NCBI RefSeq assembly: GCF_002847445.1
Contig: NZ_CP025433.1
Span: 1 to 64,000 of the forward strand
Direction of reading: 5' to 3'
From: Paracoccus zhejiangensis
GTDB taxonomy: Bacteria > Pseudomonadota > Alphaproteobacteria > Rhodobacterales > Rhodobacteraceae
Length of the DNA: 64,000 bases
Position 1 is the stretch's first letter. Every line of letters begins with the position of its first letter. The translations under genes and the position numbers were made by a program. The notes under the pieces were generated by a model. The model saw nothing but the letters and a program-made list of their open reading frames with translations, was not told where the DNA came from and did not search any database. Below are positions 5,386 through 23,857 of this stretch, in pieces.

Positions 5386-5387
5386 GC

Positions 5388-6368: not shown

Positions 6369-7142
6369 TCAGATCCCAGACCTGAATCGCATTCGAGCGC
6401 GCTGCTCTCGTCGCTGCAACTCCCGACCACGACGTATTGATTCCTCGACATAGTTCATGTGGTCGCGCGCAGCCTCCTCGGCACGTATAGGATCAGCGGC
6501 CAGAACCGACTCAATGATCTCTATGTGTTGATCGAGAAGCTTGCGTCCGCTGTCATCGATACTGCGGAGGAGATCATGATTGTAGAAGATTCCGCGACGT
6601 GTCAGGTCATAGACCGATGCCATCATGTGGATCAGCGTTGTGTTGTGGCTGGCATCGACCACAGCACGGTGAAGCCGGAAATCGGCTTCGCTTTCCGCCT
6701 CTGCGTCCTGACCAAGCCAGGCCGCTTCGAGTTCTTCCCTGATCGCGGACAGACGCTCCTTGTCCGCAGCTGTCGCGCGCTGCGCGGCAAGGCGGGTCGC
6801 GAAGGCTTCCTGCTCGCGCCGGTATTCGAGATAATCGTAAAAGGCTTCGCCATGGCGCGAATAAAGCGCCAACATGGCCGGCGACATGGCCCTGCCGGTC
6901 AGTTCGGCAATGTAGGTTCCGTCACCGTGGCGGACATGAACGAGGCCGCGAGCCTCGAGCGTCTGCAGCGCTTCACGCAGCTTTGGCCGCGACACCCCGA
7001 AGGCGTCGGCCATTTCGCGCTCCGACGGCAAACGAGCACCGTCCTTCAGAACCCCATCGACGATCATCGTTTCAACCTTGCCGACAACCGTATCGACGAC
7101 TGATGCGTGATCAATCGGCTCAAAAATTTCCGCAGCAATCAT
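6369..7142 (-). CDS. GntR-family regulator, FadR/PdhR/LldR-like
   Basis: A 257-residue regulator with an N-terminal winged helix (LPSEREMADAFGVSRPKLREAL, about residues 36-57) and a C-terminal all-helical FCD ligand domain (FRLHRAVVDAS through DHMNYVEES). The open frame runs 65 codons further upstream. I chose the ATG at 7142 because AAGGAG lies ten bases before it and homology begins there. It is divergent from the phaA-to-phaC series. PdhR (pyruvate) and LldR (lactate) belong to this family, and the target pathway here uses both compounds, so control by lactate or pyruvate is a reasonable inference. Confidence 0.9.
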   Translation of the reverse strand: MIAAEIFEPIDHASVVDTVVGKVETMIVDGVLKDGARLPSEREMADAFGVSRPKLREALQTLEARGLVHVRHGDGTYIAELTGRAMSPAMLALYSRHGEAFYDYLEYRREQEAFATRLAAQRATAADKERLSAIREELEAAWLGQDAEAESEADFRLHRAVVDASHNTTLIHMMASVYDLTRRGIFYNHDLLRSIDDSGRKLLDQHIEIIESVLAADPIRAEEAARDHMNYVEESIRRGRELQRREQRARMRFRSGI

Positions 7143-7366
7143 GGGCGGCGAGCTCCTTAGGGGTGTCGATAGACAGACATCAATATTATTTACCTCATCG
7201 GAGTCTGATTTCAAGGACAGAATCTTCTCCAGTCGTGTGTTTTTCTGTCTGAAAATCAGTATTTTCTTGATATCCATGGAGTTTCCGTTAACCTCACGCT
7301 GCCGAGAGCCCTGCGTTAACCGGCGGCCACTCGTCACAGCATCTCGATCAAAGGTAAATAAACTTG

Positions 7367-7395
7367 TTGACTACGTTAAGTGGTAAAGTTTATAT
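7367..7395 (+). promoter_or_regulatory. Predicted promoter for the phaA operon
   Basis: TTGACT (7367-7372) and TTATAT (7390-7395) are separated by exactly 17 bases, close to the sigma-70 ideal, within an AT-rich island facing phaA. It is the best promoter match in the intergenic region. The start site has not been measured. Confidence 0.6.
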
Positions 7396-7398
7396 ACC
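7382..7398. promoter_or_regulatory. Candidate GntR operator overlapping the -10 box
   Basis: GGTA (7382-7385) and TACC (7395-7398) form an inverted repeat around nine bases and cover the predicted -10 element. FadR-subfamily regulators bind TGGT-N-ACCA type sites, although usually with a shorter centre. The location fits repression by the neighbouring regulator, but the match to the consensus is only partial. Confidence 0.35.
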
Positions 7399-7675
7399 TG
7401 CTATGACGTAGGCGGGACGCTGAGCGCTCCGCCCCAACTCTGGGAGGGGGCGTCCATGCTGCAGCACGAAGCGGTTCGGTCGGACCGCAGGCCGGCTTGG
7501 CCGGTCAATCGCTCGGGTTGTCTCCGCCATGCCGGTCCACGGTGCCGCGCCTCTGACTTCTTGGCCGAGGGGCCATCAAATCGACCATGTCGAGCCGCAT
7601 TGCTTTGTTCTGCCGATGGAACCTGCTCAGCAAACTGACCACCTTTCAAACGACCTTAGGAAAAGGATCGATGCT

Positions 7676-8848
7676 ATGACGAAAGCCGTTATCGTCTCCG
7701 CCGCGCGCACGCCGGTAGGCAGTTTTTTGGGATCTTTCGCCAATGTGCCGGCGCATGACCTGGGCGCGACCGTCCTGAAGGCCGTTGTCGAACGCGCCGG
7801 CGTCGACCCGGCCGAGGTCAGTGAAACCATCCTCGGTCAGGTGCTGACCGCCGCGCAGGGCCAGAACCCCGCGCGTCAGGCCCATATCAATGCCGGCCTG
7901 CCGAAGGAATCGGCCGCCTGGGGGCTCAACCAGGTCTGTGGTTCGGGTCTGCGCGCGGTGGCTCTGGCCGCCCAGCAGGTCAGCCTCGGCGATGCCGATA
8001 TCGTCATCGCCGGCGGTCAGGAAAGCATGTCGCTGTCGCCGCACGCCTCCTACCTGCGCGCCGGTCAGAAAATGGGCGACATGCAAGCCATCGACACGAT
8101 GATCCGCGACGGGCTGTGGGACGCGTTCAACAATTACCACATGGGCCAGACGGCCGAGAACGTGGCCGAGAAATTCCAGATCACCCGCGAGGCGCAGGAC
8201 GAATTCGCCGTCGCCAGCCAGAACAAAGCCGAGGCGGCGCAGAAGGCTGGCAAGTTCGATGATGAGATCGTCGGCTATACCGTCAAGACCCGCAAGGGCG
8301 ACACGATCGTCGACAAGGACGAGTATATCCGCCATGGCGCCACGCTGGAGGCGATGCAGAAGCTGCGCCCCGCCTTCACCCGCGACGGCACCGTGACCGC
8401 CGGCAACGCCTCGGGTCTGAATGACGGCGCTGCCGCCGTGATGGTCATGTCCGAGGAAGAGGCCGCCCGTCGCGGCCTGACCCCGCTGGCACGCATCGCC
8501 TCCTACGCCACCGCCGGCCTTGATCCGGCCATCATGGGCGTGGGTCCGGTCTATGCCAGCCGCAAGGCGCTGGAAAAAGCCGGCTGGAAGGTCGGCGATC
8601 TGGACCTGATCGAGGCGAACGAGGCCTTTGCCGCGCAGGCACTGGCTGTGAACAAGGAGATGGGCTGGGACCCCGAGATCGTGAACGTGAACGGCGGCGC
8701 CATCGCCATCGGCCACCCCATCGGTGCCTCGGGGGCGCGCATCCTGAACACGCTGCTGTTCGAGATGGCGCGCCGCGACGCCAAGAAGGGTCTTGCCACG
8801 CTCTGCATCGGCGGCGGCATGGGCGTCGCCCTCTGCCTCGAGCGCTGA
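7676..8848 (+). CDS. phaA: Acetyl-CoA C-acetyltransferase (beta-ketothiolase) PhaA
   Basis: A 390-residue thiolase that condenses two acetyl-CoA to acetoacetyl-CoA, the first step of PHB synthesis. The acyl-accepting cysteine lies in [11 protein letters not shown], the His motif in [17 protein letters not shown], and the second catalytic cysteine in [11 protein letters not shown]. The ATG at 7676 begins [15 protein letters not shown], the canonical thiolase start. AGGAAAAGGA lies just upstream. phaB follows after about 40 bases, which favours the PHB role over a fatty-acid degradation role. Confidence 0.95.
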
Positions 8849-8889
8849 GGCTCCAGGCCAGAATCGACACAACATCAGAGGAGGGATCA

Positions 8890-9615
8890 ATGTCAAGGGT
8901 TGCACTAGTTACTGGGGGATCGCGCGGCATTGGCGCCGCCATCTCGAAAGCGTTGAAGGAAGCGGGTTATACCGTCGCCGCGAACTATGCCGGCAATGAC
9001 GAGGCCGCCAAGGCCTTCACCGACGAGACCGGCATCAAGACCTACAAGTGGTCGGTCGCCGATTACGATGCCTGCACCGCCGGCATCAAGCAGGTCGAGG
9101 ACGAGCTGGGCCCGATCGCCGTTCTGGTGAATAATGCGGGCATTACCCGCGATGCGATGTTCCACAAGATGACGCCGCAGCAGTGGAAAGAGGTCATGGA
9201 CACCAACCTGACCGGCCTTTTCAACATGACCCATCCGGTCTGGACCGGGATGCGCGACCGCAAGTTCGGCCGCATCGTCAATATCAGCTCGATCAACGGC
9301 CAGAAGGGTCAGGCGGGTCAGGCGAACTATTCGGCGGCGAAGGCCGGGGATCTGGGCTTCACCAAGGCCCTGGCGCAAGAGGGTGCCCGCGCCGGCATCA
9401 CCGTGAACGCCATCTGCCCGGGCTATATCGGCACCGAGATGGTGCGTGCCATCGACGAGAAGGTGCTGAACGAGCGGATCATCCCGCAGATCCCGGTCGG
9501 TCGCTTGGGTGAGCCCGAGGAAATCGCCCGCGCCGTGGTCTTCCTGGCCTCGGGCGATGCCGGCTTCATCACCGGCTCCACCATCTCCGCCAATGGCGGC
9601 CAGTTCTTCGTTTGA
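8890..9615 (+). CDS. phaB: Acetoacetyl-CoA reductase PhaB
   Basis: A 241-residue short-chain dehydrogenase that reduces acetoacetyl-CoA to (R)-3-hydroxybutyryl-CoA with NADPH. It shows the nucleotide-binding TGGSRGIG near the N-terminus, the NNAG motif, the catalytic serine in NISSINGQ, and the YSAAKAG Tyr-Lys pair. The ribosome site is GAGGAGGG, seven bases before the ATG. The gene order phaA-phaB identifies it as PhaB rather than FabG, which is a close relative. Confidence 0.93.
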   Translation: MSRVALVTGGSRGIGAAISKALKEAGYTVAANYAGNDEAAKAFTDETGIKTYKWSVADYDACTAGIKQVEDELGPIAVLVNNAGITRDAMFHKMTPQQWKEVMDTNLTGLFNMTHPVWTGMRDRKFGRIVNISSINGQKGQAGQANYSAAKAGDLGFTKALAQEGARAGITVNAICPGYIGTEMVRAIDEKVLNERIIPQIPVGRLGEPEEIARAVVFLASGDAGFITGSTISANGGQFFV

Positions 9616-9626
9616 GGGAAACACCC

Positions 9627-12281
9627 ATGAGAGACCTCGGTCCCGATATCGACCCGATCGAATCCCGCGAATGGCAGGACGCCATTGCCGACGTGATTGA
9701 ACGCGATGGCCCCAACAGGGCTCATTTCCTGCTCGATAGAGCCGTCGCACAGGCCCGCGCCGCCGGGGCAACGCTGCCGTTCTCTGCAACGACCCCTTAC
9801 CAGAACACGATCCCCGTGGACGATCAGTATGAGTTTCCGGGCGATCTGGACATGGAATGGCGCATCCGCACCATCAACCGCTGGAACGCCATGGCGACGG
9901 TCGTGCGCCGCAACAAGGAATCCAGCGAATACGGCGGGCATATCGCATCCTTCGCCTCCTCGGCGGTGATGTATGACGTCGGGCTGAACCACTTCTGGCG
10001 CGCGCGGTCGGCGATTCACGGCGGCGATCTGGTATTCTTCCAGGGCCATGTGGTGCCCGGCATCTATGCCCGGTCCTTCATGGAAGGCCGCATCACCGAA
10101 GAGCAGATGCTGAACTTCCGGTCCGAGGTCGGGGGCGAGGGGCTGTCGTCCTATCCCCATCCCTGGCTGATGCCGGACTATTGGCAGTTCCCGACCGTCA
10201 GCATGGGACTTGGCCCGCTGATGGCGATCTATCAGGCGCGGTTCATGAAATACATGCACAACCGCGGGCTGATCGATATGGCCGACCGCAAGGTCTGGTG
10301 TTTCCTGGGCGACGGAGAGATGGACGAGCCGGAAAGCCGCGGTGCCATCGACCTGGCCGCGCGCGAGGGTCTCGACAACCTGATCTTCGTCATCAACTGC
10401 AACCTGCAACGCCTGGACGGCCCGGTGCGCGGCAACGGCAAGATCGTGCAGGAGCTGGAAGGCAATTTCCGAGGCGCGGGCTGGAATGTCGTCAAGCTGC
10501 TCTGGGGCAAGGGCTGGGACGATCTGCTGGAAAACGACACCAGCGGCCGGCTGCGCCAGTTGATGGATGAAACGGTGGACGGCGACTATCAGACCTTCAA
10601 GTCCAAGGACGGCGCCTATATCCGCAAGCATTTCTTCGGCAAGTATCCCGAAACTGCGGCCCTGGTCGAGGACTGGTCCGACGATCAGATCTGGTCGCTG
10701 AGCCGGGGCGGCCACGATCCCGAGAAGGTCTATACCGCGTTCCGCAAGGCGACCGACACCAGGGACCAGCCGACCTGCCTGCTGATCAAGACGGTCAAGG
10801 GCTATGGCATGGGATCCGCGGGCGAAGGGCAGAACACCACCCACCAGCAGAAAAAGCTGGCCGAGGAGCAACTGCGCGCGTTCCGAGACCGCTTCAAGAT
10901 CCCCGTGTCCGACGAGGATTTGCCGAAGGCCCCCTTCGTCGCGTTGAACAATGCCCAGAAGGCCTATCTGGCGGACCGGCGCAAGGCCCTGGGTGGCGCG
11001 TTCCCGCAGCGTGTCAGCACCTCGCCCAAGCTGGCAATCCCGCCGCTCGAGGCGTTCAAGGCGCAGCTTCAGAACACGGGCGAGCGCGAGATTTCGACCA
11101 CGATGGCCTTTGTGCGCATCCTTACCACACTTCTGCGCGACAAGGAGCTGGGCAAGCATATCGTGCCGATCGTGCCGGACGAAAGCCGCACCTTCGGCAT
11201 GGAGGGGCTGTTCCGATCCATAGGGATCTACAATCCCGCCGGCCAGCACTATACGCCCGAAGATCGCGAGCAGATGTCCTATTACCGCGAAGCAGCGGAT
11301 GGGCAGGTCTTGCAGGAAGGCATCAACGAGGCCGGTGCCATGGCCGACTGGATCGCGGCGGCGACGTCCTATTCCAATCACGGAGTGCCGATGATCCCGT
11401 TCTTCATCTACTATTCGATGTTCGGGTTCCAGCGGGTGGGCGATCTGGCCTGGGCTGCGGGCGACAGCCGGGCGCGTGGCTTCATGTTGGGCGGCACCGC
11501 CGGGCGCACAACGCTGAACGGCGAGGGCTTGCAGCACGAGGACGGCCACAGCCATATCATCGCGGGCACCGTCCCGAACTGCATCAGCTACGACCCGACC
11601 TTTCAGCACGAAGTGGCGGTGATCGTGCAGCACGGCATGACGCGGATGTATCAGGATCAGGAGGACGTGTATTTCTACATCACCCTGATGAACGAAAACT
11701 ATGCCCATCCCGACATGCCCGCAGGCTGCGAGGAGGGCATCATCCGCGGCCTCTATCGCCTGAAAGAGGTCAAGAAGGCGGGCAAGAATCACGTCAATCT
11801 GCTGGGATCGGGCACGATCCTGATCCAGGCGATCAGGGCCGCCGAGATGCTTGAGGCCGATTTCGGCGTCACCGCCGACATCTGGTCGGCGACCAGCCTG
11901 AACGAACTGGCCCGCGACGGCCAGGACGCAGAACGCTGGAACCGCCTGAACCCGATGGAACCCCCGCGCGAGGCTTTCGTCACGCAAACGCTGTCCAAGG
12001 CCAAGGGACCGGTGATCGCCGCCACCGACTACATGAAGAACTATGCCGAGCAGATCCGGGCCTTCGTGCCGGGCCGCTACACGGTGCTGGGGACCGACGG
12101 GTTCGGCCGGTCCGACAGCCGGGTGAACCTGCGCCGGTTCTTCGAGGTCGATGCCAACCACATCGCCGCCGCAGCCATGGTGGATCTGTTCCGTGACGGG
12201 GCGGTCGACGAGGCGACGCTGAAGGCTGCCCTTGCCAAGTATGACATCGACGGCGCCAAGCCGAACCCCCGGCTGGTCTGA
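9627..12281 (+). CDS. aceE: Pyruvate dehydrogenase E1, homodimeric AceE type
   Basis: An 884-residue thiamine-diphosphate enzyme that decarboxylates pyruvate and acetylates the lipoyl group of E2. Length and start match the enteric AceE type (887 residues in E. coli), not the PdhA/PdhB pair common in alphaproteobacteria. The thiamine motif begins at GDGEMDEPES and ends in VINCNLQRLDGPV. I chose the ATG at 9627 (MRDLGPDIDP); a TTG overlapping the phaB stop in the same frame is less likely. The aceF and lpd genes directly follow, completing the complex. Confidence 0.95.
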   Translation: MRDLGPDIDPIESREWQDAIADVIERDGPNRAHFLLDRAVAQARAAGATLPFSATTPYQNTIPVDDQYEFPGDLDMEWRIRTINRWNAMATVVRRNKESSEYGGHIASFASSAVMYDVGLNHFWRARSAIHGGDLVFFQGHVVPGIYARSFMEGRITEEQMLNFRSEVGGEGLSSYPHPWLMPDYWQFPTVSMGLGPLMAIYQARFMKYMHNRGLIDMADRKVWCFLGDGEMDEPESRGAIDLAAREGLDNLIFVINCNLQRLDGPVRGNGKIVQELEGNFRGAGWNVVKLLWGKGWDDLLENDTSGRLRQLMDETVDGDYQTFKSKDGAYIRKHFFGKYPETAALVEDWSDDQIWSLSRGGHDPEKVYTAFRKATDTRDQPTCLLIKTVKGYGMGSAGEGQNTTHQQKKLAEEQLRAFRDRFKIPVSDEDLPKAPFVALNNAQKAYLADRRKALGGAFPQRVSTSPKLAIPPLEAFKAQLQNTGEREISTTMAFVRILTTLLRDKELGKHIVPIVPDESRTFGMEGLFRSIGIYNPAGQHYTPEDREQMSYYREAADGQVLQEGINEAGAMADWIAAATSYSNHGVPMIPFFIYYSMFGFQRVGDLAWAAGDSRARGFMLGGTAGRTTLNGEGLQHEDGHSHIIAGTVPNCISYDPTFQHEVAVIVQHGMTRMYQDQEDVYFYITLMNENYAHPDMPAGCEEGIIRGLYRLKEVKKAGKNHVNLLGSGTILIQAIRAAEMLEADFGVTADIWSATSLNELARDGQDAERWNRLNPMEPPREAFVTQTLSKAKGPVIAATDYMKNYAEQIRAFVPGRYTVLGTDGFGRSDSRVNLRRFFEVDANHIAAAAMVDLFRDGAVDEATLKAALAKYDIDGAKPNPRLV

Positions 12282-12305
12282 GCGGGAAGAAGGAGGAGAC
12301 ACATC

Positions 12306-13586
12306 ATGCCTGTTGAAGTGAACGTTCCGGACATCGGCGATTTCAAGGATGTCCCGGTCATCACCGTTCTGGTGAAGGTGGGCGACACCGTCGCCGCCGA
12401 GGACCCGTTGATCGAGCTTGAATCCGACAAGGCCACGATGGAGGTGCCAAGCCCCGTCGCCGGCCGCATCGCCTCTATCGTGGTCAAGGAAGGCGACCGG
12501 GTCTCCGAGGGATCGGTGATCCTGACGGTCGAGGCCGAGGGCAGCGACGCCGCAGCCGCCGCATCGGCACCTGCATCGGCGCCCGCCGCCGCGCCTGTCG
12601 CCGCGCCCGCCGCATCGGCTCCGGTCGCGGCAGCCCCCGCAGCCGCCGCCGTCACCGATTCGGGGTTCAACAAGGCCCATGCCTCGCCGTCGATCCGCGC
12701 CTTTGCGCGGCAGTTGGGGATTGATCTGGCCAAGATCAACGGCTCGGGCCGCAAGGGGCGCATCCTGCGCGACGATGTGACGGCGGCGCTGAAGGCCAGC
12801 GCAGTCCCGGCCGCCGCTGCATCGGGCGGCGCGGCGCAGGGCGGCGGCATGGGCATTCCGCCGATTCCGGTGGTGGACTTCTCGAAGTTCGGTCCGGTCG
12901 AAAACGTGGAAATGCCCCGCATCAAGAAGCTGTCCGGCCCGGCGCTGCACCGGTCTTGGCTGAACGTCCCCCATGTCACCCACCAAGAGGAAGCCGACAT
13001 CACCGAGATCGACCAGTTCCGCAAGGAACTGGACGACGAGGCCAAGAAGGACGGCTATCGCGTCACGCTGCTGGCGCTTGTCATCAAGGCCAGCGTGTCC
13101 GCGCTGCGCAAGCACTGGGAGTTCAACTCGTCGATCCATCCCGACGGCGACAAGCTGATCCGCAAGTCCTACTACAACATCGGCTTTGCCGCGGACACGC
13201 CGAACGGGCTGGTGGTCCCGGTCATCAAGGACGCCGACCGCAAGGGGATTGTCGACATCTCGAAGGAACTGGGCGATCTCAGTGCCAAGGCCCGCGCGGG
13301 AGAGCTGAAGTCCCAGGACATGCAGGGCGCGACCTTCACCATCTCGTCGCTGGGGGGCATCGGCGGCACCGCCTTCACCCCCATCGTGAACGCCCCCGAG
13401 GTGGCGATCCTGGGCCTGACGCGCTCGCGGATGGCGCCGGTCTGGGACGGCCAGCAATTCGTGCCGCGCAACATGCTGCCGATGTCGCTCAGCTATGACC
13501 ACCGCGCCATCGACGGGGCGTTGGCCGCGCGCTTTGCCGCGACGCTGAAACACCTGCTCGGCGACGTGCGCCGGATCATGCTGTGA
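12306..13586 (+). CDS. aceF: Dihydrolipoyl acetyltransferase, pyruvate dehydrogenase E2
   Basis: A 426-residue protein with one N-terminal lipoyl domain (lysine in ESDKATMEVPSP, about residue 42). An alanine-proline linker follows (residues 79-117), then a peripheral-subunit-binding domain (SPSIRAFARQLGIDL) and a catalytic acetyltransferase core ending in the SYDHRAIDG active site. It transfers acetyl groups to CoA. E. coli AceF has three lipoyl domains and this one has a single one. The nearly identical lipoyl domain on the next gene, lpd, may supply a second. Confidence 0.95.
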   Translation: MPVEVNVPDIGDFKDVPVITVLVKVGDTVAAEDPLIELESDKATMEVPSPVAGRIASIVVKEGDRVSEGSVILTVEAEGSDAAAAASAPASAPAAAPVAAPAASAPVAAAPAAAAVTDSGFNKAHASPSIRAFARQLGIDLAKINGSGRKGRILRDDVTAALKASAVPAAAASGGAAQGGGMGIPPIPVVDFSKFGPVENVEMPRIKKLSGPALHRSWLNVPHVTHQEEADITEIDQFRKELDDEAKKDGYRVTLLALVIKASVSALRKHWEFNSSIHPDGDKLIRKSYYNIGFAADTPNGLVVPVIKDADRKGIVDISKELGDLSAKARAGELKSQDMQGATFTISSLGGIGGTAFTPIVNAPEVAILGLTRSRMAPVWDGQQFVPRNMLPMSLSYDHRAIDGALAARFAATLKHLLGDVRRIML

Positions 13587-13600
13587 AGGAGGGCCGAAAC

Positions 13601-15397
13601 ATGGACATCAAGGTTCCCGACATCGGCGATTTCAAGGATGTGCCGGTCATCACCCTTCTGGTCGCCGTCGGCGACGAGGTTGCCGAGGAGCAGCCGCTTA
13701 TCGAACTGGAATCCGACAAGGCCACGATGGAGGTGCCCAGCCCCGTCGCAGGCCGGATCACCGCGATCTCGGTCAAGGAAGGCGATCGGGTCTCCGAAGG
13801 ATCGGTGATCCTGACGCTGGATGCCGCCGGCGCCGCCGCAGACCCCGCCAAGGGCGCCGAACCCGCCAAGGGCAACGAGGAGCCGCGCAAGGACAGCAGC
13901 GGCGGTCGTGACAGCAGCCCGGCCGCAGCTCAGCCCGCGGCTCAGCCCGTCCCGGCAGCGCTGCCCGCTTCGGCGCGCGGCGACATCCATGCCGAGCTGG
14001 TCGTGCTCGGTTCGGGTCCGGGCGGCTATACCGCGGCGTTCCGCGCCGCCGACCTGGGCAAGAAGGTCGTGCTCATCGAACGCTATCCGACGCTGGGTGG
14101 GGTCTGCCTGAACGTCGGCTGCATTCCGTCCAAGGCTCTGCTGCACGCCGCCAAGGTCATCTCGGAAGCCGAGGAGATGGGCCATCATGGCCTGCGCTTC
14201 TCGCCACCCGAGGTGGATCTCGACGCGCTGCGCGGCTGGAAGGACTCGGTCGTCAAACAGTTGACGGGCGGTCTCGGCGGTCTGGCCAAGGGACGCAAGG
14301 TTCAGGTCGTGACCGGCTTTGGGACCTTTGCCGGACCCAATATGATCGCGGTCGACAACGACGGGGCGACCTCCACGGTCAGCTTCGACCAGTGCATCAT
14401 CGCCGCCGGGTCCGAACCCGTGACCCTGCCGTTCATTCCCCATGACGATCCCCGCGTGATCGATTCCACCGGCGCGCTGGAACTGGACGGCGTGCCCGCG
14501 CGCCTTCTGGTTCTGGGCGGCGGCATCATCGGGCTGGAAATGGCCTGCGTCTATGACGCGCTGGGGTCCAGCGTGACGGTCGTGGAACTGATGGACCAGA
14601 TCATCCCCGGCGCCGACAAGGACATCGTCAAGCCCCTGCATAAGCGGATCGAGGCCCGATACGAGAAGATCCTGCTCAAGACCAAGGTCACGGCGGTCTC
14701 GGCCGCCGAGGACGGGCTGACCGTCACCTTCGAGGACGACAAGGGCGGCACCACGACCGATCGCTTCGACAAGATCCTGGTGTCGGTCGGGCGTCGGCCC
14801 AACGGCAAGATGCTGAACGCCGGCGCCGCGGGCGTGGCCGTGGACGACCGCGGCTTCATCGCCGTGGACAGCCAGCAGCATACCAATGTTCCCCATATCC
14901 TCGCAATCGGCGACGTGGTGGGTCAGCCGATGCTGGCGCACAAGGCAGTCCATGAAGGCAAGGTCGCCGCCGAGGTTGCTGCCGGGCACAACCGCCACTT
15001 CGACGCCCGCGTGATTCCCTCGGTCGCCTATACCGACCCCGAGGTCGCCTGGGTCGGCGTGACCGAAGCCCAGGCCAAGGCCAGTGGCCTGAAGGTCGGC
15101 AAGGGCGTTTTCCCCTGGGCTGCCTCTGGACGGTCGCTTTCGCTTGGCCGGTCCGAGGGCATCACCAAGCTGATCTTCGACGAAACCGATCAACGCGTCA
15201 TTGGCGCGGCCATCGTCGGCCCGAACGCCGGCGATCTGATCGCCGAGGTGGCCCTGGCAATCGAGATGGGGGCCGATGCGGTCGACCTTGGCCACACCAT
15301 CCACCCGCATCCTACCCTGAGTGAGACGGTGAACTTCGCTGCCGAAATGTTCGAGGGCACGATCACCGACCTGATTCCGCCGAAGAAGCGTCACTGA
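13601..15397 (+). CDS. lpd: Dihydrolipoamide dehydrogenase with N-terminal lipoyl domain (E3)
   Basis: A 598-residue flavoprotein that reoxidises the lipoyl arm, passing electrons to NAD. Residues 1-75 are a lipoyl domain almost the same as that of AceF (about 85 percent identical by eye). A proline-alanine linker joins it to a full E3: the FAD motif GSGPGGYTAAF, the redox pair in GGVCLNVGCIPSK, the NAD motif GGGIIGLEM and the HPHPTLSE catalytic histidine. Lipoyl-E3 fusions are known in Neisseria and Ralstonia. The ATG at 13601 follows AGGAGGG. Confidence 0.95.
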   Translation: MDIKVPDIGDFKDVPVITLLVAVGDEVAEEQPLIELESDKATMEVPSPVAGRITAISVKEGDRVSEGSVILTLDAAGAAADPAKGAEPAKGNEEPRKDSSGGRDSSPAAAQPAAQPVPAALPASARGDIHAELVVLGSGPGGYTAAFRAADLGKKVVLIERYPTLGGVCLNVGCIPSKALLHAAKVISEAEEMGHHGLRFSPPEVDLDALRGWKDSVVKQLTGGLGGLAKGRKVQVVTGFGTFAGPNMIAVDNDGATSTVSFDQCIIAAGSEPVTLPFIPHDDPRVIDSTGALELDGVPARLLVLGGGIIGLEMACVYDALGSSVTVVELMDQIIPGADKDIVKPLHKRIEARYEKILLKTKVTAVSAAEDGLTVTFEDDKGGTTTDRFDKILVSVGRRPNGKMLNAGAAGVAVDDRGFIAVDSQQHTNVPHILAIGDVVGQPMLAHKAVHEGKVAAEVAAGHNRHFDARVIPSVAYTDPEVAWVGVTEAQAKASGLKVGKGVFPWAASGRSLSLGRSEGITKLIFDETDQRVIGAAIVGPNAGDLIAEVALAIEMGADAVDLGHTIHPHPTLSETVNFAAEMFEGTITDLIPPKKRH

Positions 15398-15402
15398 CCG
15401 TG

Positions 15403-15430
15403 ATCGGGCGGCCACAGCTGATCGCCCGAT
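15403..15430 (+). other. Stem-loop between lpd and the phasin gene
   Basis: ATCGGGCG (15403-15410) and CGCCCGAT (15423-15430) form a perfect 8-bp stem around a 12-base loop, six bases after the lpd stop. No T-run follows, so it is more likely an RNA processing or stability element than a full terminator. Confidence 0.4.
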
Positions 15431-15462
15431 GCCTTCCGTCAGCACAGCAACAGGAGCCTGCA

Positions 15463-15927
15463 ATGACCGACAAGAAGCCCACCATGGATTTCAACGAAGC
15501 GCTCAAGGCGTTTGATCCGACCTCCCTGTTTCCGTTCATGAACTCTCAGGGCATGGCGGACTGGTTCCGCCGTCAGAATGTTGACGGCCTCGATCCCGCC
15601 TCGATGCTGAAGATGTGGCAGAAACGGCTGGATGCCCTGGCCAGTGCCAACGAGCACGCAAGATCCCTCTACCGGTTGCAGATCGAGCGCCAGTTCCAGA
15701 TTTTCGACGAGATGACGGCTGCCGCAACAGACAGCAGGAAGCGGCTCGACACATCCGTGCGCTCCGAGGCGCCCGGGAACAATCTCAAGATTCTCTCGAA
15801 CGCGGCCGACAAGGCTCTCGAGCTGATGCAGCGGCTTTCGGAGGAATCGCTGGTGGCGATGACCGAAACTCAGAAGCGGTTCGCAGTCGAGGTGGATGCG
15901 GCCGTCAAGGACTTGCGCGGCGGCTGA
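15463..15927 (+). CDS. Phasin family protein (PHB granule-associated)
   Basis: A 154-residue helical protein beginning MTDKKPTMDFNEALKAFD, with the phasin-type stretch FRRQNVDGLDPASMLKMWQKRLDAL split over two helices. Long amphipathic helices follow without cysteine. Phasins coat polyhydroxyalkanoate granules and set their number and size. Its place between the PHB precursor genes and the later phaC supports this. CAGGAG precedes the ATG at 15463. The family is diverse, so the exact phasin subtype is not assigned. Confidence 0.85.
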   Translation: MTDKKPTMDFNEALKAFDPTSLFPFMNSQGMADWFRRQNVDGLDPASMLKMWQKRLDALASANEHARSLYRLQIERQFQIFDEMTAAATDSRKRLDTSVRSEAPGNNLKILSNAADKALELMQRLSEESLVAMTETQKRFAVEVDAAVKDLRGG

Positions 15928-16115
15928 GCGAGGAGGTTGGGAAGACCCCCGTCCCTTACCGCGGTGCGCGCAAGAGCATCGCCGCGCCCGTGCCCGTGAT
16001 CGACTGATCGACCCGGACCATGGTGCGCCACGAATCCGGCACGCCCGAGAATATCGGCTGCGTTGTCAAAGACCCCCACAGGGCCGGATCGGCCCGACGC
16101 TTCTGAGGAGGAAAG
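15928..16115. other. Gap between phasin gene and lactate permease
   Basis: 188 bases without a supported gene. A small GGGCCG-GAT-CGGCCC hairpin lies at 16081-16095, just upstream of the permease ribosome site. A second promoter may lie here, but I see no convincing -35/-10 pair. Confidence 0.4.
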
Positions 16116-17885
16116 ATGTCCCAAGTCTTCACATTCGTCTTGGCGCTGCTGCCAATCGCCACCGTGTTTCTGCTCTTGGTGGTGCTCGCACGCTCGGCCA
16201 AGCTTTCGATGGGCGTTGCCTATCTGGTCACGGCCGCGACCGCGCTTCTGGTCTGGGGCACGGACCTCAACAAAATTCTTGGCGCCACCGTGAACGGTGC
16301 CGTGACTGCGGTCAGCCTGCTCTACATCATCTTCGGTGCGATCCTGATGCTCTATACGCTGGAGGAAAGCGGCGGCATCCGGTCGATCCGGGCAGGGTTC
16401 ACCAGCATTTCGCCTGACCGGCGGGTACAGGCGATCATCATCGCCTGGTTGTTCGGATCGCTGATCGAGGGGGCGTCCGGGTTCGGAACGCCCGCGGCCA
16501 TCGCCGCGCCACTGCTGGTTGCCATCGGCTTTCCGGCCATGGCGGCGGTGCTGGTAACGCTGATCATTCAGTCCACGCCTGTGTCATTCGGGGCAGTCGG
16601 CACGCCGATTCTTGTCGGTGTCAATACCGGGCTTTCGGGTCAGGCGATTGTCGAACAGACCATCGCACCGATGGCCTTCGCTGACTATCTGGTCGAGATT
16701 GCTGTCAAGGTTGCCACGCTGCATGGCCTGATCGGCTTTCTGATCCCGTTGATCATGATCGGCATGATGACGCGGTTCTTCGGTTCCCGGCGGTCCTTCG
16801 CCGAAGGGTTCCGCATCTGGAAATTCGCGCTGTTCGCCGGGCTTGCCTTCACCGTTCCCTACTGGATCATTGCCAGCCTGCTTGGCCCGGAATTTCCGTC
16901 CCTGGTGGGCGGCATCATCGGGCTGCTGATCGTCGTTCCCGCCGCACGGGCCGGCTTCCTGATTCCGAAGGAGGTCTTCGACTTTCCGCCCCGCGAACAA
17001 TGGGACGGAAAATGGGTCGGCAAGCTGGACGATCTGGAGGATCACCGTGCCGGGCTTGAGATGATGCCGTTGCTCAAGGCCTGGGCGCCCTACATATTCG
17101 TGGTTCTTCTGCTGGTCGCGACGCGCACGATTCCCGATTTCAAGGCCTGGCTGACCGCCCCGGAACGGACCATGGCCTTCGATGATCTATTCGGGTCGGG
17201 CATCAATGCCCGCGTGCAATGGCTGTATCTGCCTGGAACGGTGCTGATCCTCGCTTCGCTGTTCACCTTCCTGTTCCATCGAATGCGTCCGGCCGATTAC
17301 GGCAAGGCATTGCGTACGTCGGGATCGACAATGATCGCGGCGGCCCCGGCACTGCTGTTGGCGGTGCCGATGGTGCAGGTGTTCATCAACTCTGCCTCGG
17401 ACACGATGGCGTCGATGCCGATCGTGCTCGCCGAAAGCGTCTCGGCCGTGGTCGGCAGTGCCTGGCCGATGTTCGCGCCGCTGATCGGGTCGATGGGCGC
17501 CTTCGTCGCCGGATCGAACACGATTTCGAACATGATGTTCTCGTTGTTCCAGTTCTCGACCGCTGAACAGATCGGTCTGGGCGCGGCCGGGGCGGGATTG
17601 GTTGTTGCGCTGCAGGCCATCGGCGGTGCGGCAGGCAATATGATCTGCGTGCACAACGTGGTGTCAGCCTCGGCCACGGTGGGACTTGTGGACCGCGAGG
17701 GCGAAATCATCCGCATGACCCTGATCCCGATGTTCTATTATATCGTCCAGGGCGGCTTTCTTGGTCTTGCTATCCTGGCGGGCGGACTGAACCTGTGGTG
17801 GATCGCCGTGTTGATCTGGCCGGCCACCGTGCTTTTCCTGATGTCGCGCAATCGCGGGGCTGTTCCCGCCACCCAAAAACGCTGA
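16116..17885 (+). CDS. lctP: L-lactate permease (LctP/LldP family)
   Basis: A 589-residue integral membrane protein with about 13-14 hydrophobic segments, matching the lactate permease family in length. Characteristic stretches are [37 protein letters not shown] and [18 protein letters not shown]. It imports lactate, probably with protons. GAGGAGGAAAG lies before the ATG. The three lactate-oxidation genes follow immediately, which fixes the substrate more firmly than sequence alone, since glycolate permeases belong to the same family. Confidence 0.93.
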
Positions 17886-17892
17886 GGTCGTC

Positions 17893-18660
17893 ATGTCCGG
17901 ACAGCCAAACCCCCGCGTCGGTCTTTTCGTGACCTGTCTCGTGGATGCCATCCGCCCCAGCATCGGGTTTTCCGCCATCCAGCTTCTGGAAGAGGCCGGA
18001 TGCCGGGTCGAGGTGCCGCAGGCGCAGACCTGTTGCGGGCAACCGGCCCTGAACAGCGGGGACGAAAAGGATGCAGCTGCACTGGCGCGACAGACCATCG
18101 CTGCTTTCGAGGGCTTCGACTATATTGTCCTGCCCTCGGGATCCTGCGCGGGAACCATCGTGCACGGCTATCCGAACCTGTTGGCCAACGATCCGGTCTG
18201 GGCGCCCCGCGCCCAAGCCATGGCTGCGAAAACCCACGAGATTACCAGCTTTCTGGTGGATGTCATGGGCTTCCACACCAAGGGCCGCCGCCTGGAGGCG
18301 ACGGCCACCTATCACGACAGTTGCGCAGGGCTGCGCGAACTGGGCATCGCTGCGCAACCCCGTGCGCTTCTGGCGGAAGTCGAGGGCCTGGAGATGCGGG
18401 GACTGGAAGGCAATGATGTCTGCTGCGGCTTTGGCGGCACGTTCTGCGTCAAGTATTCCGACATCTCGAACGCGATCGTCACCGAAAAGGCCGAGGCGAT
18501 CGAGCGCACCGAGGCCGACCTGCTTCTTGCGGGAGATCTGGGATGCCTGATGAACATGGCAGGCAAGCTGAACCGGCGGAGCGCAAGGACGCGCTGTTTC
18601 CACACCATCGAGGTTCTGGCGGGCCGGGCCGGCGGTCCAGCCATCGGCGAGGAGGGCTGA
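17893..18660 (+). CDS. lldE: Lactate utilisation protein LldE/LutA (CCG-domain iron-sulfur subunit)
   Basis: A 255-residue protein with two cysteine-rich CCG domains: TCCGQPALNSG near residue 47 and DVCCGFGGTFCVKY near residue 176, each supported by earlier cysteines (FVTCLVD, YHDSCAGLREL). With LldF and LldG it forms the membrane-associated complex that oxidises L-lactate to pyruvate. It begins seven bases after the permease stop and ends a few bases before lldF. Confidence 0.93.
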   Translation: MSGQPNPRVGLFVTCLVDAIRPSIGFSAIQLLEEAGCRVEVPQAQTCCGQPALNSGDEKDAAALARQTIAAFEGFDYIVLPSGSCAGTIVHGYPNLLANDPVWAPRAQAMAAKTHEITSFLVDVMGFHTKGRRLEATATYHDSCAGLRELGIAAQPRALLAEVEGLEMRGLEGNDVCCGFGGTFCVKYSDISNAIVTEKAEAIERTEADLLLAGDLGCLMNMAGKLNRRSARTRCFHTIEVLAGRAGGPAIGEEG

Positions 18661-18665
18661 GAATC

Positions 18666-20099
18666 ATGAGCGCACCAGAGGCATCAGTGCAGGTTTCGTT
18701 CAAGAACCGAGCCAAGACGGCACTGGCGGACCGGACGCTGAAGATCGCCATCGACCGCACCACCGGCACGGCCGAGGCCAAGCGCGCGGTGGCGGTGGCG
18801 GCGTTTCCCGAATTCCAGGACGCCCGCGCCCGCGGGCGCGCGATCAAGGATCACGTGATCGCCTATCTGGACCATTATCTTGAACAGTTCGAGCGCAACG
18901 CCACCGCATCTGGCGCGAAGGTCCACTGGGCATCCGACGATGCCGAGGCGCGGGCGATCATCACCCGCATCTGCCTGGATGCAAAGGCCAGGCTGGTGAC
19001 GCGGTCGAAATCCATGCTGGGCGAGGAAATCGGTCTGCCGCATGCCTTGGCCGATGCCGGGATCGAGCGGGTCGAGACCGACCTGGCCGAACACATCATC
19101 CAGCTTGCCGGAGAGGCCCCCTCCCACATCGTCTGGCCCGCGATGCACCGCACCCGCGAACAGGTGGCGGAACTGTTCAAGATAGCTCATCACCCGCCGC
19201 CCGCCGCCGACGATCCGGCCACCATGGTGCAAAGCGCGCGGCGCGAATTGCGCGCCAAGTTTCTGGGGGCCGACATCGGTATTTCGGGGTCGAACTTCCT
19301 GGTGGCCGATACGGGTGCCACCTGCACAGTGACGAATGAAGGCAATGCTGAACTGACCACCACGCCGCCGCGCATTCATATCGTGACGGCGGGGATCGAG
19401 AAGATCGTGCCGACCACCGCCCATGCCCTGTCCCTGCTGCGCCTGCTGGTGCGGTCGGCCACGGGTGGCGAACTGACGCAATACACCACTTTCCACTGTG
19501 GACCCAAACGTCCTGGCGACGCCGATGGTCCCGAGGAGATGCACATCGTGCTGGTGGACAACGGCCGCACCAGGATGCTGGCCAATGAGTTTCGCGAGAT
19601 GCTGCGCTGCATCCGCTGTGGTGCCTGCATGAACCATTGCGTGGTCTATCGTCAGATCGGCGGGCACGCCTATGGCGGCACCTATCCCGGACCGATGGGT
19701 TCGGTACTGACGCCGGTGCTGAACGGGCTGGCCGGATCGCGCGACCTGCCCAATGCGTGCACCATGAACGGCCGCTGCGCCGAAGTTTGCCCGGTCGAGA
19801 TTCCTATCCCCACACTGCTGCGCGCCTGGCGGATACGCAGTTGGCGAGAAAGGCTGGAACCGGGAAGCCTTCGCGCCGGTATCGGTGTCTGGGCCGTTCT
19901 GGCCCGGCGGCCCGGTCTTTACCGGCTAGCCAGCCGGATCGGCGTGCGCGCCATCCGGCTATTCGGCAAGGGGGGCTGGATCACCCGCCTGCCACTGGCG
20001 GGCGGCTGGACGGCTCATCGCGACCTGCCGCGCCCGACGGGCCGCACCTTCATGGACCAGTATCGCGCCCAGCAGGCAGATAAGGGGGACCGCCCATGA
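18666..20099 (+). CDS. lldF: Lactate utilisation protein LldF/LutB (ferredoxin-like subunit)
   Basis: A 477-residue protein combining a LUD domain (SKSMLGEEIGL and NFLVADTGATCTVTNEGN) with two 4Fe-4S motifs near residue 316 (CIRCGACMNHC) and residue 367 (CTMNGRCAEVCPVEIP). It passes electrons from lactate oxidation toward quinone. I chose the ATG at 18666, five bases after the lldE stop, because the family begins at that position; the frame is open further upstream only inside lldE. Confidence 0.93.
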   Translation: MSAPEASVQVSFKNRAKTALADRTLKIAIDRTTGTAEAKRAVAVAAFPEFQDARARGRAIKDHVIAYLDHYLEQFERNATASGAKVHWASDDAEARAIITRICLDAKARLVTRSKSMLGEEIGLPHALADAGIERVETDLAEHIIQLAGEAPSHIVWPAMHRTREQVAELFKIAHHPPPAADDPATMVQSARRELRAKFLGADIGISGSNFLVADTGATCTVTNEGNAELTTTPPRIHIVTAGIEKIVPTTAHALSLLRLLVRSATGGELTQYTTFHCGPKRPGDADGPEEMHIVLVDNGRTRMLANEFREMLRCIRCGACMNHCVVYRQIGGHAYGGTYPGPMGSVLTPVLNGLAGSRDLPNACTMNGRCAEVCPVEIPIPTLLRAWRIRSWRERLEPGSLRAGIGVWAVLARRPGLYRLASRIGVRAIRLFGKGGWITRLPLAGGWTAHRDLPRPTGRTFMDQYRAQQADKGDRP

Positions 20100-20743
20100 C
20101 CGCCCGCGACCGCATCCTGTCGGCGATCCGCGCCGCCCTGCCCCAGGAACACCCGGCGCCCGACGCCATCGCCGCCGAGGCCATGGCCCTGTTGGCCGAT
20201 CCCGACACCAGCCGCCCCCGGCTGGTCGCCGAGGGGCTGGTCGATGCCTTCATCCTGAAGGCCGAGGCGATCGGCACGACCATCGATCGGGTTGGCGGCA
20301 CGGAAGCCGTTCCCGACGCCGTGCGGCGCTATCTTTCGGGATACGGCCTGTCCCTGTCCCTGGCCCTGGAACCGACGCCAGCGCTGACCTCGCTCGACTG
20401 GACAGGCCTTGACACCGGCACCACCCTTGCACCGGACCAGCCGGTAGCGCTCGGCAAGGCGCTTTGGGGTATTGCCGAAAGCGGGTCCATGATCGTGCAT
20501 TCGGGCGCCGATACGCCGATCTTGCTGTCTTTCCTGCCCCTGCATCATATCTTGGTGCTGCGGGAATCCGATGTCCTGTCCCATCTCGAGGACTATGCTG
20601 CGCAGTTGGCCGCGCGGCCCCATCCGCGCAACGCGATCGTGATCACCGGACCCAGCGGCACGACCGATATCGAAGGGAGCTATGTGCGCGGGGCGCATGG
20701 ACCGGGCTTCCTGCATGTGATCCTTGTTGCAAGCGCAGACTGA
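20096..20743 (+). CDS. lldG: Lactate utilisation protein LldG/LutC
   Basis: A 215-residue LUD-domain protein. Typical stretches are WGIAESGSMIVHSG, FLPLHHILVL and ITGPSGTTDIEGSYVRGAHGP. It is the third component of the LutABC lactate oxidase. The ATG overlaps the lldF stop by four bases, indicating coupling. phaC starts 83 bases after its stop. Confidence 0.92.
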   Translation: MTARDRILSAIRAALPQEHPAPDAIAAEAMALLADPDTSRPRLVAEGLVDAFILKAEAIGTTIDRVGGTEAVPDAVRRYLSGYGLSLSLALEPTPALTSLDWTGLDTGTTLAPDQPVALGKALWGIAESGSMIVHSGADTPILLSFLPLHHILVLRESDVLSHLEDYAAQLAARPHPRNAIVITGPSGTTDIEGSYVRGAHGPGFLHVILVASAD

Positions 20744-20826
20744 CAACCTGCCGGTTGCCAATCCCCACCACCGCCGGCCGTTGCCAGCAGAGCCGGTCGT
20801 CCTATCTACGCCCAAGGAGACCCGGA

Positions 20827-22581
20827 ATGGACCAAAGCGAGATTGCCGAACAGACCGCCGAATTCGCCAACCTGATGCAGCGCGCGCAGGGGCTGGTGCA
20901 AAGCAGCAGCGCCAATGCCATGGCCAAGGCGACGGGGCGCGAATTCTCGGTGCTGGATTCGGGGACCGTGGCGCAGGCCTATGCCCGCGCGGGGATGAAG
21001 CTGGCGCAGAACCCCTTTGCGCTGGCGCAGTTCCAGATCGATCTGTGGGCCGACAGCGCTAAGGCATGGGCCGGTGCATGGTCGGGCGAGGGCGAGGACA
21101 GCAAGGATCGCCGCTTCCGCGATGGCCGCTGGACCACCGATCCGGTAAGCCGGGGCCTGCGCGACGTGCATCTGGCCATCGAGGGCGCGGCGGACCGGCT
21201 GATCGAGACCCTGCCCGAGGGTGACAAGGACAGTCTGCGGGTACGGTTCTATACCCGGCAATTGCTTAGCGCGCTGTCGCCCAGCAATTACCTGGCGCTG
21301 AACCCCGCTGCCCGCGAGCGTTTCCTTGAAACCGATGGCCGCAGCCTGCTGGACGGGTTCCGCAACCTGCTGGACGATCTGGAGCGCGGCGACGGGCGGC
21401 TGGACATCAACATGACCGACCGCTCGGCCTTCGAGGTCGGGCGCGATCTGGCGACCACGCCGGGGCAGGTGATCTATCAGAACGAATTGATCCAGTTGAT
21501 CCATTACGAGCCGCTGACCAAGACCCAGTTCAAGCGCCCGCTGCTGTTCGTGCCGCCCTGGATCAACAAATACTACATCTTCGACATGAAGCCCGAAAAC
21601 AGCCTGGTCCGCTATATGCTGGAACAGGGGCACAGCGTCTTCCTGATTTCCTGGGTCAACCCGACCAAGCAGCACGCGACCCTCAGCTTCGAGGATTACA
21701 TGCGCCTCGGTCCGCTGACCGCGCTGGACGCGATCACCGAGGCGACCGGCGAGGATGAGTTCGACATTCTCGGCTTCTGCATCGGCGGGATTCTGGTGAC
21801 GGCGACGCTGGCCTATATGGCGGCCAAGGGCGACAAGCGGGTCAAGACGGCGACGACGCTGGCGACGATGGTGGATTTCACCGATGTCGGTGAAATCGGC
21901 GTCTTCATCGATCGCGACCGGCTGCAGGTGCTGCGCGAGCATATGGCCGAAAAGGGCTATCTGGAAAACCACCACCTGCAGGACATGTTCTCGATGATCC
22001 GGGAAAACGACCTGATCTGGTCCTTCCATGTGATGAACTACCTGATGGGCCGCAAGCCGCCTGCGTTCGATCTGCTGTTCTGGAACGGCGACAGCACCCG
22101 TCTGCCTGCCGCCATGCTGCTGTGGTATCTGGAAAAGATCTATATCGAGAACGGCTTGCGCCAGCCTGGCCATCTGACCATGGACGGCGTGCCCATTGAT
22201 ATCAGCAAGATTGACATCCCCTTCTATGTCTTTGCGACGAAGGAAGATCACATCGCGCCGTGGAACTCGATCTATCCGACGACCGGCTTGCTGGGGGGCG
22301 ATACCACCTTTGTTCTGGGCGGTTCGGGCCATATCGCTGGCGTGATCAACCCGCCTGCGAAACGGCCGAAATACGGGTTCTGGACCAGCGCGGCTGCCTA
22401 TCCCGCCGATCCCCAGGACTGGCTGGCCAAGGCCACGCCGCATCAGGGCTCGTGGTGGCCGAACTGGGCCGAATGGATCGAGAGCCACAGCAAGGGCAAG
22501 AAGGTTCCCGCCTATGTGCCCGGCAGCGGCAAGCTGAAGGCGATCGAGCCTGCGCCGGGCAGTTATGTGCGGGCGGGATAG
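20827..22581 (+). CDS. phaC: Polyhydroxyalkanoate synthase, class I PhaC
   Basis: A 584-residue polymerase that joins (R)-3-hydroxyacyl-CoA into PHB. The lipase-like box is GFCIGG, with the nucleophilic cysteine; the catalytic aspartate is in KEDHIAPW and the histidine in GGSGHIAGV. The conserved tryptophan-rich ends PPWINKYYI and GSWWPNWAEW are present. Length fits class I, which works without PhaE or PhaR. It is intact, ending PAPGSYVRAG. IS66 debris begins right after its stop. Confidence 0.95.
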   Translation: MDQSEIAEQTAEFANLMQRAQGLVQSSSANAMAKATGREFSVLDSGTVAQAYARAGMKLAQNPFALAQFQIDLWADSAKAWAGAWSGEGEDSKDRRFRDGRWTTDPVSRGLRDVHLAIEGAADRLIETLPEGDKDSLRVRFYTRQLLSALSPSNYLALNPAARERFLETDGRSLLDGFRNLLDDLERGDGRLDINMTDRSAFEVGRDLATTPGQVIYQNELIQLIHYEPLTKTQFKRPLLFVPPWINKYYIFDMKPENSLVRYMLEQGHSVFLISWVNPTKQHATLSFEDYMRLGPLTALDAITEATGEDEFDILGFCIGGILVTATLAYMAAKGDKRVKTATTLATMVDFTDVGEIGVFIDRDRLQVLREHMAEKGYLENHHLQDMFSMIRENDLIWSFHVMNYLMGRKPPAFDLLFWNGDSTRLPAAMLLWYLEKIYIENGLRQPGHLTMDGVPIDISKIDIPFYVFATKEDHIAPWNSIYPTTGLLGGDTTFVLGGSGHIAGVINPPAKRPKYGFWTSAAAYPADPQDWLAKATPHQGSWWPNWAEWIESHSKGKKVPAYVPGSGKLKAIEPAPGSYVRAG

Positions 22582-22599: not shown

Positions 22600-23664
22600 G
22601 AGATCGTTTGACGGTAAGCGCAACGGCGTGACCTACGCCCTGATCGAGACGGCCAAGCTCAACGGAGTCGATCCCAACGCTTGGCTCGCCGACATGCGGA
22701 TCGTAGCGGAGAGCTTTCTCGCGCACCGCCAGGTCTCAGCGACGGCGCGGCGGCATGGTGTGTCGCGCTCGTTGCTGACGATATGGCGGCGGCAGTATCG
22801 CGACGGTCAGCTTGGCAACGAGGCGCCGCCTTCGTTTTTCCCGCTGAGAGTTTCGCCCAAGGCGCCTGCGGCAGTGTCCGTTACGGCACAGGAGGCGCCG
22901 CGCGACACCCCGGACGTCCAGCTCGAGATCGTGCTCAGGAACGGGCGGCGGCTTCTGGTCCCGTCTTCGGTGGACCCGGAGATTTTTGCGCGGCTGCTAG
23001 CCCACCTGCCGCGCTGTTCCACTTCTCCCGCGACTGCGGCATGGCCAACCCCAACCGGCATCTCGCCGGATGGCAGGGCATCCTGCAAGCCGATGCCTAT
23101 GGCGGCTACAATGACCTCTACCGCACCGACCGCGATCCGGGGCCAGTCGAGTCAGCGCTGTGCTGGAGCCATGCCCGGCGCAAGTTCTTCGACATCGAGC
23201 GCGGGATCAATGGCCTGACGGCTGCGGGCCGTCAGGTGGCCAAGCACCAGCTGTCCCGGCCTCTGATCGAGGGGCTTCAGGGCTGGCTACGCGCCGAGCG
23301 CGACCGGCTGTCGAAGCACAACCCGGTCGCCAAGGCGATCGACTACATGTTCAAGGCGGAGCGCTGGCCCACCTTCACCCGGTTCCTCGACGATGGCAGG
23401 GTCTGCCCGACGAACAATGCGGCGGAGCGTGCGCTGCGCGGTGTCGCGCTTGGCCGGAAGTCCTGGCTCTTCGCTGGCTCCGAGCGTGGTGGTGACCGCG
23501 CCGCCTTTATGTATTCCCAGATCGTCACAGCGAAGATGAACGATGTCGATCCTCAAGCCTGGCTCGCCGATGTCCTGGCCAGACTGCCCGGGACGACAGC
23601 TTCTCGGGTGCCGGATCTCTTGCCCGGGAATTGGAAGGCGTCCGAACTTCGCCGAGCGGCCTAA
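22600..23664 (+). mobile_element. IS66-family remnants (TnpC tail, TnpA fragment, TnpC C-terminal half)
   Basis: Three pieces are joined. About 22620-22693 encodes a TnpC tail (ETAKLNGVDPNAWLAD). 22694-23008 encodes most of TnpA (RRHGVSRSLLTIWRRQYRDG). From about 23015, in another frame, 23664 closes a TnpC C-terminal half (WQGILQADAYGGYNDLY, CPTNNAAERALRGVALGRKS, and again AKMNDVDPQAWLAD). The TnpB gene, the TnpC N-terminus and the TnpA start are missing. The two TnpC tails show that at least two IS66 copies recombined here. It is not mobile by itself. Confidence 0.85.
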
Positions 23665-23857
23665 ACCGCGGCCCACGCCGGATGGTTACGGCTGATATGG
23701 GCCCATCGCTGCTTGTGTCGCCAAAATGAAACACTTCTCATGCCCTGTGAGGAGGTGACCTTCCATATCCGCTACATGGCGTCGAAAGGTGCATTTGCAA
23801 GCCTTGCCGGCCTGCCCAAAGTTAGTTTTCCGCCCCGTTTCCATCCCGGGAAAGACT

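Follow-up and report, generated by a model that had tools for sequence, protein, structure and literature searches.

Does a run of genes that joins lactate uptake, lactate oxidation, pyruvate dehydrogenase (PDH) and polyhydroxybutyrate (PHB) synthesis form a single unit for storing lactate carbon? The question is raised by the first 64,000 nucleotides (the window) of contig C4 (150,390 bp) in the 4.64-Mb, five-contig genome of Paracoccus zhejiangensis. At 6369-22581, a GntR-type regulator gene on the - strand faces eleven genes on the + strand (about 16 kb) in the order phaA, phaB, aceE, aceF, lpd, a phasin-like gene, lctP, lldE, lldF, lldG and phaC. On the evidence of the sequence, we think it likely that this block (the island) is a mobile, lactate-controlled cassette that stores lactate carbon as PHB. 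The reading as a single lactate-to-PHB unit has good support as genome organisation and is unproven as physiology.

An earlier note, made from the letters of this DNA alone, had described this eleven-gene order and the divergent regulator, and both are borne out: the gene families were matched, and there are no internal stops in any of the eleven frames from phaA to phaC. AceE (9627..12281), the homodimeric PDH E1, scores 1440.9 bits against a cut-off of 859.9 for TIGR00759 and aligns with the solved AceE structure 1l8a along its length. AceF (E2; 12306..13586) and Lpd (an E3 with a lipoyl domain; 13601..15397, with Biotin_lipoyl and Pyr_redox domains) are above the cut-offs of TIGR01348 and TIGR01350, so all three components of an AceE-type complex were found. 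Of the PHB genes, phaC (20827..22581) is above the cut-off for class I polyhydroxyalkanoate synthases (TIGR01838, 657.2 vs 622.65 bits), and its motifs GFCIGG, EDH and GHIAG, which we take to hold the active-site Cys, Asp and His, align with structure 5hz2. The acetyl-CoA acetyltransferase gene phaA (7676..8848) passes only at the general thiolase level (TIGR01930) and is below the PhaA equivalog NF042967 (359.4 vs 740 bits). The acetoacetyl-CoA reductase gene phaB (8890..9615) passes TIGR01829 (373.2 vs 302.1 bits) and is below the PhaB equivalog NF042966 (220.8 vs 436 bits); its top match among solved structures is the acetoacetyl-CoA reductase 4kms.

Lactate entry is represented by an L-lactate permease gene, lctP (16116..17885; PF02652; TIGR00795, 344.3 vs 341.15 bits), followed by three genes of the LutABC/LldEFG type in tandem: lldE (LutA type; 17893..18660), with CCG domains (PF02754); lldF (LutB type; 18666..20099), with LUD, 4Fe-4S and LutB_C domains (PF02589, PF13183, PF11870); and lldG (LutC type; 20096..20743), with a LUD domain (PF02589). 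LldF narrowly misses the NCBIfam LutB/LldF family TIGR00273 (435.5 vs 444.8 bits). The 154-amino-acid phasin-like protein (15463..15927) has no Pfam or NCBIfam match, but a profile comparison relates it to a family of four that includes a Pfam Phasin_2 match, L036 (hhalign probability 99.2, E 1.8e-19). It has 7 homologues among about 5.8 billion proteins, none of them named phasin, and its predicted structure is all-helical at low confidence (predicted local distance difference test score, or pLDDT, of 69.5), which we did not use as proof. The island's parts all belong to known enzyme families.

We refined the starts of aceE (9627), lldF (18666) and phaC (20827), as well as those of the regulator and lpd, which are probably at 7142 and 13601; the lpd start as listed, a GTG at 13583, gives a 4-bp overlap with aceF. 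The intergenic gaps from phaA to phaC are then, in order, 41, 11, 24, about 14, 65, 188, 7, 5, -4 and 83 bp, with the phaB-aceE and aceF-lpd gaps computed from starts 9627 and 13601. The largest lies between the phasin-like gene and lctP, and every other gap is between -4 and 83 bp. No RNA family reached the gathering threshold in positions 1-30000 of the window.

The regulator gene (6369..7142, - strand, with an alternative longer GTG start at 7337) encodes Pfam GntR and FCD domains. The earlier note had placed it in the PdhR/LldR family. A PdhR/LldR/GlcC-like GntR protein does face the module, but it is below the curated cut-offs for both PdhR (NF007001, its best NCBIfam match; 182.6 vs 330 bits) and LldR (NF007741; 155.8 vs 311 bits). 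In a study of Paracoccus denitrificans, GlcR clusters with GlcC, PdhR and LldR (PMC11323563).

The E. coli-type PdhR box, TTGGTNNNACCAA, reached at best 7/10 in the intergenic regions beside the regulator gene and was replaced as the candidate operator by a GGTAAA dyad. This dyad was first spotted as a perfect repeat in a Geminicoccaceae metagenome-assembled genome (MAG; locus L051) and then in the window, so these two loci are not independent tests of it. In the window, GGTAAA-N5-TATACC at 7382..7398 (no strand assigned), before phaA, matches GGTAAA-N5-TTTACC at 11/12 positions. It is the top score in the 64 kb (the runner-up has 9/12), and a TTGACT hexamer, read by eye, stands immediately before it, a placement that would suit a repressor.

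Two held-out sites test the dyad. Across all 150,390 bp of C4 there are only two sites with at least 11/12 matches, the one at 7382 and a 12/12 site at 144861, which is intergenic, between a second FCD regulator and the D-lactate dehydrogenase gene dld that faces it (144850-146682; equivalog NF008387, 917 vs 391 bits). Two such sites arose in 0 of 100 first-order Markov simulations. The dld-linked regulator shares 78% identity with its FCD counterpart in the P. ferrooxidans lactate operon, and that operon also has a 12/12 dyad, between its regulator and its D-lactate dehydrogenase gene. Because the dyad is common to the island, dld and the P. ferrooxidans operon, the PDH and PHB genes appear to lie under a putative lactate operator.

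The same block is present in other members of the genus. We found AceE (E <= 1e-100) in 26 of 125 Paracoccus genomes, at 27 places, and read the contexts of the 26 places besides the window's. The full order is present in 6 of the 125 genomes: the window's, P. tegillarcae (G116), P. aurantiacus (G016), P. lutimaris (G046), G020 and G112. A seventh copy, in G087, is incomplete, running from phaA to lpd and then to the contig end. The stretches in G107, G111 and G093 and at a second place in G087 also stop at contig ends; G084 has a D-lactate dehydrogenase gene alone near AceE; and at seven places with AceE at 53-58% identity (L157-L163) there are no lactate or PHB matches nearby, except weak ones to TRAP transporters. 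Thus the earlier note's claim of one conserved unit holds up, with the full order in six genomes and, ahead of phaA, the only strong operator of lactate type. The refuting condition that it named, an order not conserved in other genomes, was tested and fails. The full order was seen in some Paracoccus only, and the arrangements elsewhere are related but different.

The edges of the block are sharp. In all five of the other full-order genomes, the region homologous to the window begins at 6362; its other end is at 22609 in P. aurantiacus, at 22633 in two genomes and at 22703 in the remaining two. Because these edges are common to all five, the gene arrangement is more than chance. Furthermore, aceE is 98% identical to the window's at the nucleotide level in G116, G016, G020 and G046 (89% in G112), and lctP is 97-99% identical, while the chromosomal phaA is only 79-86% identical between the window's genome and these relatives. 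This disparity between aceE and chromosomal phaA marks the block as a horizontally moving cassette. The G116 copy is on plasmid pBM151 and the G112 copy is on a chromosome-sized contig of 3.63 Mb, so chromosomes and plasmids probably both carry it. Within the block, phaA has a different history: between the window and G116 it is 80% identical where aceE is 98% identical, and in a phaA tree the island copies do not group together as a single clade, with six changes, of which starred branches force at least three. Island phaA has probably undergone more than one replacement.

C4 itself is probably, though not certainly, a plasmid, because RepC (PF03428) is on C3 and C5 and not on C4, the RepA-type match at 124923-125897 is only 31% identical, and there is no overlap between the contig ends. 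On the 3.99-Mb contig C1 are pdhABC (E1 alpha, E1 beta and E2 all above cut-off), a 2-oxoglutarate dehydrogenase complex, a class I PhaC that is 37% identical to the island's, and a phaAB pair that is 93-95% identical to the island pair at the nucleotide level (93% for phaA), with homology limited to the coding regions. C1 also has a flavin mononucleotide (FMN)-dependent L-lactate dehydrogenase-type gene (above the cut-off of NF008398 and below that of LldD, NF033901). In a genome-wide search, LUD and LctP genes were found in the island only, and lctP is the sole Lactate_perm match. Given the chromosomal pdhABC, phaAB, phaC and L-lactate dehydrogenase-type gene, along with dld on C4, the island is a second, complete set rather than the genome's only route. 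On balance, the earlier note's interpretation is partly supported.

We propose that when lactate (or pyruvate) is present, a GntR/FCD repressor would leave the 7382 operator, allowing all eleven genes to be transcribed together. LctP would import lactate, LldEFG would convert L-lactate to pyruvate, and a dedicated AceEF-Lpd complex would convert pyruvate to acetyl-CoA. PhaA and PhaB would then form (R)-3-hydroxybutyryl-CoA, which PhaC, with the phasin, would store as PHB granules, giving a net flux of lactate carbon into PHB. With the same operator, dld on C4 would probably be co-induced.

Is AceE linked to such genes beyond Paracoccus? At a cut-off of E <= 1e-200, we found AceE in 74 of 394 genomes of the family and in 11 of 385 genomes of the class, and read contexts for 76 of 78 and 10 of 12 places, respectively (the remaining two of each are the window's and one already included). 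To these we added the best 80 of 586 named GTDB loci; the named and unnamed sets overlap. Leaving aside the class-level places and merging the contexts of identical AceE, this gave 157 distinct AceE sequences, of which short flanks left 27 unclassed for lactate genes and 28 for PHB genes. Lactate genes are near AceE at 29 of 130 classifiable loci, and PHB-type genes at 30 of 129, nine of these by a phasin match alone, since any phasin match was counted as PHB. Both are present at 10 of 126 loci. The linkage is recurrent, and it is not universal because 84 of the 126 have neither. The dyad (at least 11/12) is present at 9 of 29 lactate-linked AceE loci versus 1 of 101 non-linked loci (P = 3.9e-6), although this P overstates the evidence, as near-identical Paracoccus copies were counted separately and L051 and the window were included.

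On an AceE tree (FastTree), to which we give modest weight, the state with both lactate and PHB genes needs four changes, at least two of them forced by starred branches (Paracoccus and L051). The L051 locus has a GntR gene facing a TRAP transporter, a D-lactate dehydrogenase gene, phaA, phaB, aceEF-lpd and lldEFG, with a phaC match on the opposite strand. At four separate loci, malic enzyme, phaA-phaB and aceEF-lpd lie on one strand within 20 kb: L272 (G566), L274 (G873), L084 (Skermanella) and L010, where the order is malic enzyme-phaAB-aceEF-lpd-phasin-phaC. PDH genes are with pntAB, and without lactate genes, in Neomegalonema MAGs (which also have phaA and phaB) and others. It is possible, though we hold this only tentatively, that the alphaproteobacterial AceE-type PDH is storage-directed and has several times become part of pyruvate-to-PHB modules whose front ends are interchangeable. 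Control of each module by its substrate would commit that particular food to polymer, and PHB would double as an electron sink at low oxygen. The front ends would be L- or D-lactate (Paracoccus, Geminicoccaceae) and malate, entering through malic enzyme (Skermanella, G566, G873 and a Rhodobacteraceae MAG); some modules would also include pntAB or genes for respiratory oxidases.

Other AceE surroundings were also seen. In Shimia and relatives (L012, L013, L018, L055, L056, L169, L177 and others), PDH genes of this kind come after genes of the urate/allantoin type (Xan_ur_permease, OHCU decarboxylase), and in two class-level genomes of 1.2-1.3 Mb (L275, L276), a phaA-like thiolase (51-53%) is directly upstream of aceE.

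Several observations weigh against a lactate-controlled storage cassette. Five P. yeei-type genomes (G121, G110, G058, G062 and G027) have a GntR gene facing aceEF-lpd-lctP-lldEFG with no pha matches, and their dyad scores 9/12 at most. G109 has phaA-aceEF-lpd-lctP-lldEFG, with no phaB match and no phaC in the fetched stretch. G049 and G009 have phaA-(phaB)-aceEF-lpd-phasin-pntAB-lctP-lldEFG, with phaC absent from the fetched stretch, and the phaB of G009 is a 51-amino-acid match only. With such pha-free and pha-reduced relatives, the PHB genes are dispensable to a lactate-PDH core. The near-identical chromosomal copies make the island phaAB redundant. As for control, the island GntR is only 36-39% identical to canonical lactate regulators; the consensus scan for promoters and terminators, uninformative with 5 and 11 sites vs 3.0 and 11.2 expected, lists no promoter at the 7382 dyad; and a second promoter could lie in the 188-bp gap before lctP. 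In favour of such a cassette, the dyad is also present in the diverged relatives, whose intergenic regions cannot be aligned with the window's, with scores of 11 (G049), 12 (G109) and 10 (G009). Also in its favour, the pntAB genes of G009 and G049, between the phasin gene and lctP (L150, L154), are a possible source of NADPH for PhaB.

These PHB-gene observations, together with the scattered positions of island phaA in the tree, are what would be expected of a lactate-catabolic operon whose own PDH feeds the tricarboxylic acid cycle, with the pha genes as passengers or gene-dosage copies that have little effect on flux. We consider this unlikely, though it is the most serious competitor. Of the 9 module genomes that have phaA and their downstream side in view (G087 is cut), 6 combine phaAB with the phasin gene and a phaC that is well diverged from the chromosomal one; phaA in the full-order copies seems to have undergone replacement, not loss; and PHB-type genes recur near AceE at the loci counted above, including those with a phasin match alone.

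We see little chance that phaAB, the PDH genes, the lactate genes and phaC are independent transcription units that merely adjoin. The 188 bp before lctP and the 83 bp before phaC would leave room for separate units, but neither gap has a terminator-like site (in a scan where such sites are at chance level over the region), a site of at least 11/12 occurs only upstream of phaA, and the order is kept while the sequences recombine. That PhaC polymerises lactate itself into a lactate-containing polyester, rather than 3-hydroxybutyrate only, is very improbable: the synthase is divergent from the chromosomal PhaC and adjoins lactate genes, but it scores as an ordinary class I enzyme, phaA and phaB make the usual monomer, and there is no gene for forming lactyl-CoA among the twelve genes.

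Around the island, remnants of IS66 (accessory gene and transposase; 22632..23664, + strand; NF047595 and NF033517 above cut-off) lie at the 3' edge of the block, followed by an EamA/DMT transporter gene (23789..24745, + strand), whose relatives (about 50% identical) adjoin the module in other Paracoccus. Upstream, at 488-5816 on the - strand, are ccoO and ccoN of a cbb3 oxidase, together with genes for a heavy-metal P-type ATPase and an Rrf2 regulator. A Mu-type transposase domain (PF22483) is on the same contig at 57393-58880 (- strand).

Storage polymer genes are usually regarded as a general sink under the control of nutrient state. Here, a whole substrate-to-polymer path appears to have been placed under the operator of the substrate itself and to move from one species to another. 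If so, the island would be a natural, ready-made pathway from lactate to bioplastic, and it would allow a test of whether gene organisation is a level at which bacteria assign particular foods to storage.

The closest known systems share parts of this arrangement. In the phaCAB operon of Cupriavidus necator, phaC, phaA and phaB are together as in the island; that operon is not known to include PDH or substrate-entry genes. The lactate operon on plasmid pFER4 of P. ferrooxidans (Paracoccus denitrificans group) has an FCD regulator facing D-lactate dehydrogenase-lctP-lldEFG. Its lctP, lldE and lldF are 81-83% identical to the island's and it has the GGTAAA-N5-TTTACC site in common, but the annotated stretch has no PDH or PHB genes, the D-lactate dehydrogenase gene is inside, and the FCD regulator is a different one (36%). 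On plasmid pTT13-3 of P. yeei, aceEF-lpd-lctP-lldEFG is in the same order as in the island and faces an 81%-identical GntR, and a P. sanguinis plasmid has the same PDH-lactate order (in view from aceF on). In contrast to the island, operons of the pTT13-3 type are without phaA, phaB, the phasin gene and phaC, and their operator reaches only 9/12 (five genomes tested).

In Shewanellaceae, one GntR regulator, PdhR, controls both aceEF-lpd and lldP-dld, and LldR is present in 55 genomes (PMC5343134). This is a regulon rather than one cassette, and the passage on it names no PHB genes. Because the PdhR regulon spans both, co-control of PDH and lactate genes is already known at the level of a regulon. 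Among the titles and abstract openings of the open-access literature, a scope with most subscription journals outside it, none described a combined lactate-PDH-PHB unit or a cassette that includes every PHB step. Similar in plan is a plasmid cluster of Skermanella mucosa, aceEF-lpd-malic enzyme-symporter-phaAB-cydAB-phaC. Oxidase genes are at both loci, with cydAB inside this cluster and the cbb3 genes directly upstream of the island. The Skermanella cluster differs in its malate-type front end, with no lactate genes annotated in the stretch, but like the island it brings PDH and a complete PHB pathway together on one strand.

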